Below, in pieces: positions 2,540 to 6,816 of a stretch of DNA of 35,898 nucleotides. The notes under the pieces were generated by a model, which was not told the origin of the DNA, did no database searches, and saw only the letters and a list, made by a program, of their open reading frames with translations. The stretch is from a virus. Each line of letters starts with the position of its first letter. Position 1 is the stretch's first letter. A program made the position numbers and the translations under genes. The stretch lies in the IMG/VR virus record IMGVR_UViG_3300025949_000061, positions 1-35,898 of that record; one strand, written 5' to 3'.

Positions 2540-2731
2540 ATGAGCCTTAGCCGTACGGCAATCGAGTTGAAGCTGGAGCGCTGGGAAATAAGCGAACTCA
2601 TCGAGCGGCTGCGCGACATGCAGTACCGAGCGGCTGACAAGCAAGAGTACGGCGACGCGGCTAACTACAAACAACGGGCAAATGAGCTGGAGCAGTTGTT
2701 GAAGACAACACCGCTTGAGCCCGCAGTCTGA
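2540..2731 (+). CDS. UVR-like helical hairpin protein (63 aa)
   Basis: The product is two short helices, the second of which (about residues 26-56) resembles the UVR motif of UvrB/UvrC and ClpC-type proteins: xxYRAADKQEYGDAAxYKxRxxELE. In those families the motif mediates protein-protein contacts. Here it stands alone, so a small adaptor or binding peptide is a guess. ATG at 2540 lies nine bases after the previous stop. Confidence 0.5.
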   Translation: MSLSRTAIELKLERWEISELIERLRDMQYRAADKQEYGDAANYKQRANELEQLLKTTPLEPAV

Positions 2732-2761
2732 TTGACACTGTTACCAACTATGGAGATTGAA

Positions 2762-3115
2762 ATGCGAACGATCAACGACCATAAAGTAAATCCCGCCAAT
2801 GACAAAATTGAAATCACCGTGACAGATCAGCCGGGGGCTGGCGGCGCAAACCATGTTTACAGCATCAACTGGCAATCCGGGGCGGTGACGCTGCAGTTTC
2901 AGAACGGCCCAATCGCTGAGGTCGGTGTCAACGGCATCACTCAGGAAGTACTGCTCGCGATCTGCGCTGATCGTTTGCGCGCCTTCCAGAGTGGTCCGTA
3001 TGCATGCCGTGAAAACGCATTAGCACTGACCAAGATCGAGGAAGCACAGCACTGGCTGCATCACCGCACACTCGCGCGCATGGCCCGCGGAGTTGAAGGA
3101 ACGCATGCAGTCTAG
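2762..3115 (+). CDS. Tad1/Acb2-like cyclic-nucleotide sponge (putative anti-defence)
   Basis: The start ATG at 2762 is chosen because GGAG lies six bases upstream; the frame is open from 2732. The 117-residue product has a beta-rich N-terminal half (NDHKVNPAND, GAGGANHVYSI) and an alpha-helical hairpin C-terminal half. The hairpin contains QNGPIAEVGVNG, a helix ending in RAFQSGPYACRENALAL and a terminal RxARGVEGTH signature. This architecture matches phage proteins carrying the Acb2/Tad1 hairpin domain. Known members bind and sequester immune signals: Tad1 takes TIR-derived gcADPR (Thoeris) and Acb2 takes cyclic di- and trinucleotides (CBASS). Assignment is from remembered family motifs, not a search. 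The ligand cannot be told from sequence, and the family also includes uncharacterised members. Confidence 0.62.
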   Translation: MRTINDHKVNPANDKIEITVTDQPGAGGANHVYSINWQSGAVTLQFQNGPIAEVGVNGITQEVLLAICADRLRAFQSGPYACRENALALTKIEEAQHWLHHRTLARMARGVEGTHAV

Positions 3116-3937: not shown

Positions 3938-4183
3938 GTGAAGAAATACATTTGCATCGCGGCGCTACTGTTGGTCGCTTGTACCAATCCAGACGGTGCC
4001 ACCCGCGTGCTCAAGGAGAACGGCTTCAAGGACGTGCAAATCACTGGCTACAAATGGCTGACATGCAGCGAAGATGACATCTATCACACGGGCTTTCGTG
4101 CAATAGGGCCGGTAGGTACGAAGGTCTCCGGGACTGTCTGCGAAGGACTGTTCTTCAAGAACTCAACCATTCGGTTCGACTGA
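3938..4183 (+). CDS. Small secreted lipoprotein (81 aa)
   Basis: A GTG start at 3938 (RBS GAAGGAA) gives a 15-residue lipoprotein signal: MKK, a hydrophobic IAALLL core and lipobox LVAC with Cys15 as the predicted lipidation site. The mature part is about 66 residues with two further Cys (LTCSEDD, GTVCEG) that could form a disulfide in the periplasm. It would be anchored in the membrane. Prophage-encoded lipoproteins of this size often alter the host surface or exclude related phages (as T5 Llp or phi80 Cor do), but that role is an inference here. Confidence 0.6.
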   Translation: MKKYICIAALLLVACTNPDGATRVLKENGFKDVQITGYKWLTCSEDDIYHTGFRAIGPVGTKVSGTVCEGLFFKNSTIRFD

Positions 4184-4200: not shown

Positions 4201-4404
4201 ATGAGCATGTGGCTTAACAACGACGAGCTGAAAGAACTCACGGGCTACAGCCAGCGTGATAAGCAGCGTCGTGCCCTGGCCGAGCTCGGAGTTAAGTTTC
4301 GCACCCGGCCGGCGGATGGCTTCCCCTTGGTAGATCGATCGCAATTTGAGCATACTGCGCCCGGAACCCGTCCTAAGCGCGAGCCGAGAGTCCCAATCAA
4401 CTAA
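4201..4404 (+). CDS. DUF4224 protein, putative excisionase/recombination directionality factor
   Basis: The 67-residue product opens with WLNNDELKELTGYSQRDKQ, followed by RALAELGVKFRTRPADGFPLV. This is the DUF4224 pattern: a small winged-helix-like domain found immediately before phage tyrosine integrases. Nine bases separate it from the integrase, so the two are almost certainly co-transcribed. By position and fold it is the best candidate for the excisionase or an integrase accessory factor; direct activity is inferred. Confidence 0.7.
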   Translation: MSMWLNNDELKELTGYSQRDKQRRALAELGVKFRTRPADGFPLVDRSQFEHTAPGTRPKREPRVPIN

Positions 4405-4413
4405 GGACCAGCC

Positions 4414-5409
4414 ATGGGGCGCCAGAGAACAACGCACACCTACCTGCCTAAGTACGTGAAGCCGAACCACGGCAGCCTGTACTACGCACCGCCCAAGCAG
4501 AAGCCCGTTCGCATCTGCAAGATTGGCGATGATCAGGCGCTCTATAAGTTCATGCTGACGCTCACCGAGCCGGCTGGGCCAGTAACGACAATGGGCGATC
4601 TGTTCGACCGCTACGAGCGCGAGATCGTGCCGACACTTTCTCCCACCACACAAAAGGATTACCGCTGGCTGCTCAAGTTCCTGCGCGAGTATTACAGCCA
4701 CATGCGGCCTGACGAGGTGACCACGAAAGACTGCGGGTTGCTACTGCAATCGCAGAAGCACGGAAAGGCCGTGCGTGTACGGCTGCTCGCGGTGCTGTCG
4801 TCAGTGTTCAGCCAAGCTGTCGGCTTCTGGTTTGTCTGCGAGCGGAATCCTTGTCGCGACGTAAAACGTCCGCCGACCGGCAAGCGCGATCGGTACATCA
4901 ACGATGAGGAATACGAGATCATCAAGGCTCGCATGCCTCTACGGCATCAGATCGCGATGGATCTGGCGCTACTAACGGGCCAACGTCAGGGCGACCTGCT
5001 CAGCTTGAAATGGGATCAGGTAGGTCCGGAAGGCATCTACTTCGAGCCATCCAAGGTTCGCAAGAAGACCAAGAAAAAAATCCTCGTGCTGTATTCGCCG
5101 ATGCTCAAAGAGACGCTGGCTCGAGCCAAGATGCTGATCCCGCATTTACCCCGAGAGTACGTGCTGAGAACGGCCAAAGGTAAGCGCTACAGCGCCGGCG
5201 GTTTCCGCTCGATCTGGGGACGGGTAATGCGCAAGGCCATGAAGGACGGCGTGATCGAAACGCGTTTCACGTTCCACGACATCCGAGCCAAGACGGTGAG
5301 CGATGAGGATGATTTGGGCAAGGCCAATTTGCGGGCTGGTCACACGTCAATGGCAATGACCAAAGGCGTGTATGACCGTGGTGTTCGGAAGGTTACACCG
5401 CTGAAATAA
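4414..5409 (+). CDS. int: Tyrosine-type phage integrase
   Basis: This 331-residue recombinase catalyses site-specific integration and excision. It has an N-terminal arm-binding region, a core-binding domain around residues 55-150, and a catalytic domain. The catalytic residues are visible: Arg191 in LTGQRQGDLL, His288 and Arg291 in FHDIRAK, His310 in RAGHTS and nucleophile Tyr320 in GVYDRG. A lysine-rich beta hairpin (RKKTKKK) supplies the expected catalytic Lys. ATG at 4414 lies eight bases after an AAGGA site. The gene ends 62 bases from a tRNA-Thr 3' fragment, which fixes its probable target. Nothing looks truncated. Confidence 0.93.
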   Translation: MGRQRTTHTYLPKYVKPNHGSLYYAPPKQKPVRICKIGDDQALYKFMLTLTEPAGPVTTMGDLFDRYEREIVPTLSPTTQKDYRWLLKFLREYYSHMRPDEVTTKDCGLLLQSQKHGKAVRVRLLAVLSSVFSQAVGFWFVCERNPCRDVKRPPTGKRDRYINDEEYEIIKARMPLRHQIAMDLALLTGQRQGDLLSLKWDQVGPEGIYFEPSKVRKKTKKKILVLYSPMLKETLARAKMLIPHLPREYVLRTAKGKRYSAGGFRSIWGRVMRKAMKDGVIETRFTFHDIRAKTVSDEDDLGKANLRAGHTSMAMTKGVYDRGVRKVTPLK

Positions 5410-5471
5410 GATGCACTCGCTACCGAAAGATGCAATGCGATTTTTTAGGCGCGCCCAAGTGATTGATTTTA

Positions 5472-5516
5472 TGGTGCCGGTTGACGGATTCGAACCGCCG
5501 ACCCCCTCATTACGAA
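5472..5516 (-). other. attP: attP core: 3' half of tRNA-Thr(CGU)
   Basis: Read on the minus strand this 45-bp segment is the 3' part of a tRNA. It starts in the anticodon loop (TTCGTAA, anticodon CGT), then carries the anticodon 3' stem, variable loop, T arm (GGCGG TTCGAAT CCGTC), acceptor strand AACCGGC, discriminator A and CCA. The bases 5' of the loop do not form the matching anticodon stem, so the tRNA is incomplete. Such 3' tRNA fragments beside an integrase are the crossover core of attachment sites. Phage genes on both sides indicate attP and not a host junction. Confidence 0.8.
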
Positions 5517-5581
5517 GATGCTCTACGAAAATTCTGTACTGTGTTCTTTCGGTTAGACTATTCAATCACGGATCGCATCTT

Positions 5582-5651: not shown

Positions 5652-5726
5652 TGGCATGTAGCTCAGCGGCAGAGCAGACGCCTGTTAAGCGTCCGGTCCC
5701 TGGTTCGATCCCAGGCATGCCAGCCA
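5652..5726 (+). tRNA. tRNA-Asn(GUU)
   Basis: A complete cloverleaf can be drawn. The acceptor is TGGCATG/CATGCCA, the D stem GCTC/GAGC, and the anticodon stem GACGC/GCGTC around CTGTTAA with anticodon GTT. The T arm is CCTGG TTCGATC CCAGG, followed by discriminator G and an encoded CCA (5724-5726). The T1-A72 pair and G73 are typical of bacterial tRNA-Asn. It is probably phage-borne, since it lies between attP and other phage genes. Confidence 0.95.
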
Positions 5727-5733
5727 GTTTTGA

Positions 5734-5807
5734 TCGCGGATCGTCTAACGGTAGGACACGAGATTTTGATTCTCGTAATTGGGGTTCGAATCCCTGTCCG
5801 CGAACCA
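5734..5807 (+). tRNA. tRNA-Gln(UUG)
   Basis: The acceptor is TCGCGGA/TCCGCGA and the D stem GTCT/GGAC. The anticodon stem CGAGA/TCTCG surrounds TTTTGAT with anticodon TTG. The T arm is TGGGG TTCGAAT CCCTG with two G-T wobbles, followed by discriminator A and an encoded CCA. It lies seven bases after tRNA-Asn, so both are likely processed from one transcript. Confidence 0.95.
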
Positions 5808-6215: not shown

Positions 6216-6226
6216 AGGAACAGTGA
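6037..6226 (+). pseudogene. Coiled-coil small protein with a one-base frameshift
   Basis: ATG at 6037 overlaps the previous stop (ATGA) but the frame ends at 6153 after 38 residues. Removing one A from the AAA run at 6110-6112 restores an open frame to a TGA at 6224-6226. That stop overlaps the GTG of the HNH gene (GTGA), exactly like the other junctions here. The restored product is about 62 residues: MSELSEIDKIRWQRDTAMAE followed by RDRLEAEIERLTTLLSYAE, a smooth heptad coiled coil. The frameshift may be a sequencing or assembly error, a real mutation, or less likely programmed slippage. Confidence 0.65.
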
Positions 6227-6816
6227 AGGATCGGAAGCTTTATGACAGGCTGCTTGAGAAGATAGTCATAGACGAAAGCACAGGCTGTTGGAACTGGACA
6301 GGATATGCCTTTGACAAAAGGCCGTACCCTGGCAATAGGTATGGCTGCATAGGTATCCGTGATCCAGAAACGAACAAGTCCAGGACCATCGCGACGCATC
6401 GCGCCATGTGGTTTGCAGTACATGGTAAGCCGGCGGCTGGTCAGTGTGTTTGCCATAGCTGCGATAATCCGAAGTGCGTGAATCCGAACCATCTATGGTT
6501 AGGCTCTCGCCGTGATAACACTATGGATATGATCAAGAAGAATCGCCATCACCTGAAGAAGAAAACTCACTGCAAGCGCGGGCATCTTCTTTATGGAGTA
6601 AATGTCATGGTGACTGCGGACGGATACCGACATTGCAAAATTTGTGAGCGGGGACGTTTAAGAATGCGATGGGGATGGCCAGAGGACCTTGCTTTTAGTG
6701 TGGCGCCACTGCCTTTGGGTCATGTCATGAACAAAAAGACCGGCGTTGTCATTACTGAATCGCCAAAGGCTCGTATGGCGCGAAAGCGATCTCACAGCGC
6801 AGGAGGTGAAGCGTGA
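6223..6816 (+). CDS. HNH endonuclease (homing-type)
   Basis: A GTG start at 6223 follows GGGAGAGG. The 197-residue protein has an HNH_3-type nuclease core. Its motifs are THRAMWFAVHGKP, CVCHSCDNPKCVNPNHLWLG (catalytic His and Cys/Asn positions) and the RRDNTMDMIKKNR tail helix. After the core a second zinc-knuckle region, CKRGHLLYGVN and CKICERGRLRMR, probably binds DNA. Free-standing HNH nucleases of this kind are common mobile genes in phages. Here it sits beside phage tRNAs and the frameshifted ORF. Confidence 0.88.
   Translation: MKDRKLYDRLLEKIVIDESTGCWNWTGYAFDKRPYPGNRYGCIGIRDPETNKSRTIATHRAMWFAVHGKPAAGQCVCHSCDNPKCVNPNHLWLGSRRDNTMDMIKKNRHHLKKKTHCKRGHLLYGVNVMVTADGYRHCKICERGRLRMRWGWPEDLAFSVAPLPLGHVMNKKTGVVITESPKARMARKRSHSAGGEA

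Follow-up and report, generated by a model that had tools for sequence, protein, structure and literature searches.

A Compact Tad1-Family Protein, Very Likely a Nucleotide-Signal Sponge, in the Integrase Arm of a Small Temperate Podovirus-Like Phage

Introduction

The window analysed here is a virus record of 35,898 bases, and on its plus strand, at positions 2762-3115, lies a small gene whose product was proposed in a preliminary description to be a probable anti-defence sponge of the Tad1/Acb2 type. The question is to which of these two families the protein belongs, if to either, and what it would capture in the infected cell.

Tad1 is reported to be hexameric, with three interlocked dimers as its building units. 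A dimer accommodates two molecules of gcADPR or of a cyclic dinucleotide in pockets to which one protomer contributes its loops and tail and its partner the helices, while cyclic trinucleotides are held at two trimer interfaces, and the ligands are sequestered without being degraded (PMC12043709; PMC12657218). The fold is defined by an N-terminal antiparallel sheet, beta1-beta4, followed by two long C-terminal helices, and the C-terminal tail contributes to the pocket; Acb2 is also a hexameric sponge (PMC12043709).

Results and Discussion

The open reading frame encodes 117 amino acids and coincides exactly with positions 2762-3115 of the plus strand, starting with ATG and ending with TAG. A Shine-Dalgarno-like GGAG can be read directly in the sequence at 2752-2755 (+), 6 nt 5' of the ATG, and we consider it a good ribosome-binding site. 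Comparison with four close relatives gives pN values of 0.12-0.19 against pS values of 0.73-0.88, that is, the synonymous sites are near saturation and the protein is little changed. Such a low pN at a near-saturated pS shows that tad1 is a real gene under selection, and the case for purifying selection is strong.

Searching the PDB with the single sequence yields CmTad1 (8kbb, E 1.3e-20), CbTad1 (7uav and its kin, 1e-14) and phiKZ gp184 (1.6e-14), and all of the significant sequence matches are Tad1. With a profile built from 42 viral relatives, the E-values become 1.3e-38 for CbTad1, 9.2e-32 for CmTad1 and 4.7e-22 for phiKZ gp184. The identity to the Tad1 of phage SBSphiJ7 is 47% over 92 residues, and the best PHROG match is PHROG_2428 (E 7.1e-31, residues 15-116). 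Since both the best PDB match and the best PHROG match reach such values, the similarity is far past chance, and the protein is significantly homologous to characterised Tad1 proteins.

We now turn to the predicted fold. The AlphaFold2 model, calculated for the monomer with an alignment of 42 rows, has a mean pLDDT of 91.5 and contains strands at residues 2-4, 17-20, 32-37 and 40-46, followed by helices at 61-77 and 83-108. This confirms the beta-rich N-terminus seen earlier, and the order of four strands and then two long helices is the one that defines the Tad1 fold (PMC12043709). A Foldseek search of the PDB, which had been suggested as a check and in which the lack of a structural match would have spoken against the proposal, returned 20 matches at E<=0.001, all 20 being Tad1, with TM-scores up to 0.85 and rmsd values of about 2 A for the best ones. 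They include apo, gcADPR-bound, cA3-bound and cAAG-bound entries, and the first match beyond the 20 Tad1 structures has an E-value of 0.3. As every significant sequence and fold match in the PDB is Tad1 and none is Acb2, the original Tad1/Acb2 call, which is upheld by sequence, profile, predicted fold and conserved pocket residues, can be narrowed to Tad1. The protein is thus an additional Tad1 of an already known family.

The conserved residues give a consistent picture. Among the 42 viral relatives, A29, H31, Y33, Q47, G49, G58, R71, F75, G78, C82, R83, E84, N85, W98, R102, R106 and G113 are invariant. In an alignment of the characterised proteins (SBSphiJ7 Tad1, phiKZ gp184, CbTad1 and part of CmTad1), N85, R102, R106, G113 and T114 are identical throughout, and residue 75 is a phenylalanine in all of them except phiKZ gp184, which has a tyrosine. 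CbTad1 carries F, N, R and R at positions 82, 92, 109 and 113, and these four align with F75, N85, R102 and R106. F82, N92, R109 and R113 are the sites of the gcADPR-pocket mutants of CbTad1, and by this list the pocket residues are conserved in the present protein.

At the DNA level, these positions fall into four segments of the plus strand. The codons for FQNGPI (residues 46-51, positions 2897-2914) form a conserved segment leading from the end of strand 4 into the G55-G58 loop, and include the invariant Q47 and G49, with the invariant G58 closing the loop. The two motifs that were quoted in the preliminary description as a hairpin signature were both located, namely FQSGPYACRENALAL at residues 75-89 (2984-3028), which covers the end of helix 1, the hairpin turn and the start of helix 2, and ARGVEGTH at residues 108-115 (3083-3106), which is the conserved C-terminal tail. 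Between them, RTLAR at residues 102-106 (3065-3079) contains R102 and R106, the counterparts of CbTad1 R109 and R113.

It is useful to consider the genome in which the gene is found. The minus strand encodes replication genes (a primase-helicase, a primosomal protein and a Holliday junction resolvase), the terminase, the head-tail adaptor, the major head protein, a tail protein, an internal virion protein and the lysis genes. The nearest relatives of the head-tail adaptor are from an environmental Caudoviricetes record, two Stenotrophomonas phages and Burkholderia phage BcepC6B (38-43% identity), which suggests a temperate podovirus similar to BcepC6B. On the plus strand, positions 1-5.4 kb are occupied by a series of small genes in which tad1 lies midway and xis and int come last, the former an excisionase-like DUF4224 protein at 4201-4404 (+; PF13986, E 8.1e-12; excisionase PHROG_1266) and the latter a tyrosine integrase at 4414-5409 (+; PF00589, E 1.1e-11; PHROG_1, E 4.8e-41). 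In the left operon of lambda, an arm of this type is transcribed early and carries accessory genes, and by analogy we infer an early timing for this one as well. A scan of the arm for promoters and terminators gave hits at chance level.

The neighbouring small genes had been thought to hold possible further anti-defence functions, but this idea did not find support. Apart from orphans, they comprise a widespread phage lipoprotein, a peptide with a UVR motif and the excisionase, and searches of Pfam, PHROGs, NCBIfam and PADLOC with the neighbours of tad1 brought up nothing convincing among defence or anti-defence families. A PADLOC match to LmuB/JetC at 877-1698 was dismissed as weak coiled-coil similarity. 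Directly upstream of tad1, at 2540-2731 (+), lies the gene of a 63-aa protein in which the UvrB/UvrC (UVR) motif PF02151 scores above its Pfam cut-off. The predicted lipoprotein of 81 aa at 3938-4183 (+) belongs to PHROG_902 and has relatives in 1,029 phage records, most of them from enterobacterial phages. It may be an exclusion lipoprotein, and its similarity to the Cor superinfection-exclusion family is very weak.

Some further features lie beyond the integrase. Just past it, at 5471-5530 on the minus strand, a stretch of ~60 bases resembles the 3' part of a tRNA-Thr and is about 85% identical to phage tRNA-Thr genes, with no tRNA called there by ARAGORN or Rfam. This stretch is probably the attP core, and the internal position of the putative core suggests that the contig represents circularly permuted or packaged phage DNA rather than an integrated prophage. 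Beside it, at 5652-5807 (+), are phage-borne genes for tRNA-Asn(gtt) and tRNA-Gln(ttg), and an HNH homing-type endonuclease (PF13392) is encoded at 6223-6816 (+), between the tRNA genes and the lysis genes. HNH endonucleases of this kind are also found near two of the tad1 relatives.

The position of tad1 changes between relatives. Of the three relatives examined for this, two (L001 and L005) have the gene between the replication genes and the terminase, and the third (L061) has it upstream of the terminase. In the DNA around more than 130 relatives, with tad1 itself as the positive control, none of the neighbouring reading frames of the 1-5.4 kb run, xis and int included, recurs beside tad1. 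A conserved anti-defence island is therefore rejected, and the changed position together with the non-recurring neighbours indicates that tad1 appears to shuffle as a single accessory gene. Tad1-like genes were also seen in two contigs binned as archaea (Pacearchaeota, L088:6001-6330, and Thermoplasmatales, L092:6001-6324), and these may be genuine genes of archaeal viruses or the result of faulty binning.

The hosts of the relatives offer both kinds of target. In the 16 genomes holding close relatives, a SMODS cyclase match at E<=0.001 is found in three, two of these being over the cut-off, and a ThsB TIR (ThsB_TIR) match at E<=0.001 is also found in three. Adjacent ThsB-type proteins matching the PADLOC Thoeris models are present in Aureimonas pseudogalii (L060), and a CBASS cyclase with a 2TM effector in Psychrobacter aquaticus (L081). 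Thoeris and CBASS thus both exist in these hosts, but as the counts come from a small set of 16 genomes with no background rate, the co-occurrence names no target defence for the present phage.

Taken together, we consider it very likely that the 117-aa protein is a Tad1-family signal sponge that keeps Thoeris or CBASS effectors silent. According to the model, the protein would consist of a four-stranded N-terminal sheet and a long two-helix hairpin. By analogy with the characterised homologues, two protomers would interlock into a dimer and three dimers would assemble into a hexamer, in which each dimer could bury two molecules of gcADPR or cyclic dinucleotide in pockets where the helices contributed by one protomer face the loops and C-terminal tail of its partner, with two further sites on the trimer faces for cyclic trinucleotides. 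The gene would be expressed from the accessory plus-strand run that it shares with xis and int, presumably in the early phase of infection or upon induction. Tad1 would then capture, undegraded, the alarm molecules made by the TIR enzymes of Thoeris and the CD-NTases of CBASS, such that ThsA, NucC, CapV and similar effectors stay inactive and the phage escapes abortive infection. Of the possible ligands, gcADPR is the one most likely sequestered, and cyclic tri- and dinucleotides are probably sequestered as well. For the oligomer, pockets, ligands, timing and role in vivo alike, we infer these properties from the homologues.

This interpretation has to be weighed against other explanations. 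Perhaps the one that deserves most attention, albeit rather unlikely in our judgement, is that the protein has the Tad1 fold but is specialised for one ligand class, for instance gcADPR without cyclic trinucleotides, or for a different TIR or CD-NTase product, with differing details of assembly or pocket. Few members of the family are shorter than its 117 aa, its strand 3-4 segment falls well below the length seen in many relatives, and the breadth of cyclic dinucleotide binding is reported to vary among Tad1 homologues (PMC12043709). On the other hand, the pocket residues are conserved, the binding of cyclic trinucleotides and gcADPR is reported to be conserved among the homologues that have been tested (PMC12043709), and the SBSphiJ7 Tad1, which blocks Thoeris (PMC12043709), likewise has a short segment there. 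The short segment is, for this reason, no argument against Thoeris inhibition. That compact Tad1 proteins with a short strand 3-4 segment have lost a ligand class or acquired another, and as a subgroup counter a signal made by TIR enzymes or CD-NTases for which no sponge is known so far, is a speculation to which we assign a low probability.

Another scenario considered was that of a phage structural or packaging-linked protein that merely shares the hairpin. Relatives in Lactococcus phage 1706 and Bacillus phage P59 carry the annotation structural protein, phiKZ gp184 is likewise entered as structural, and some relatives are located directly upstream of terminase genes. However, the match to Tad1 is full-length and the protein does not have the N-terminal extension of phiKZ gp184, the gene is situated in the int/xis arm apart from the virion genes, and the phiKZ Tad1 is itself described as being injected and as acting against CBASS and Thoeris (PMC13282480), which together make a structural role very improbable. 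Even less probability can be given to an Acb2-type anti-CBASS sponge. PF24729 does pool the hairpins of Acb2 and Tad1 and gives a weak match here, but no Acb2 chain was found among the PDB sequence matches, with either the single sequence or the profile, nor among the fold matches at E<=0.001. Moreover, the model has a four-stranded N-terminal domain, whereas in Acb2 the two helices are preceded by just a short N-terminal helix (PMC12043709). With neither a sequence nor a fold match, and with the N-terminal sheet present, the Acb2 identity was rejected.

Returning to the Tad1 assignment, it is important to point out that common annotation libraries miss this Tad1 subgroup. The match to PF24729 (Acb2/Tad1 hairpin) has 23.4 bits and an E-value of 6.8e-5, just short of the curated gathering cut-off of 27 bits, and as direct Tad1 homology exists, this family seems too narrow for the subgroup. 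Searches of NCBIfam and PADLOC gave no match to the protein. Its coding sequence (2762-3112) matches three PHROGs that are unlabelled, PHROG_2428, PHROG_23843 and PHROG_22140, which on sequence grounds appear to be Tad1 families. Considering that 116 phage records match the 117-aa Tad1 alone, relabelling PHROG_2428 would reveal many unannotated tad1 genes.

Comparison with Known Systems

With the present case, the Tad1 family gains a well-supported member from a small, temperate phage that resembles podoviruses. The family was discovered in SBSphiJ7, whose Tad1 inhibits Thoeris (PMC12043709), and the two proteins share the conserved helices, the tail, the pocket residues and the short strand 3-4 segment. 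They differ in the N-terminal stretch, and the phages themselves are different, SBSphiJ7 being a large Bacillus herellevirus (153 kb record).

Acb2 resembles the 117-aa protein in its two-helix hairpin, on account of which it is pooled with Tad1 in PF24729, but it is without the N-terminal sheet that the protein possesses. The match to PHROG_2428 leads to a family that carries no functional label in PHROGs v4.

In the case of phiKZ gp184, the virion Tad1 (PDB 8y6v), the C-terminal Tad1 region can be aligned with 34% identity, and N85, R102 and R106 are kept. Unlike the 117-aa protein, which has neither an extension nor a link to the virion, gp184 has an N-terminal extension of ~100 residues and is carried in the virion. 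There are also CmTad1 (8kbb, 8kbc and 8kbd) and CbTad1 (7uav, 7uaw, 8smd, 8kbe and 8kbf), with which the protein shares the pocket residues and, with TM-scores of 0.75-0.85, the fold, the identities over the aligned part being 51% and 42%, respectively.
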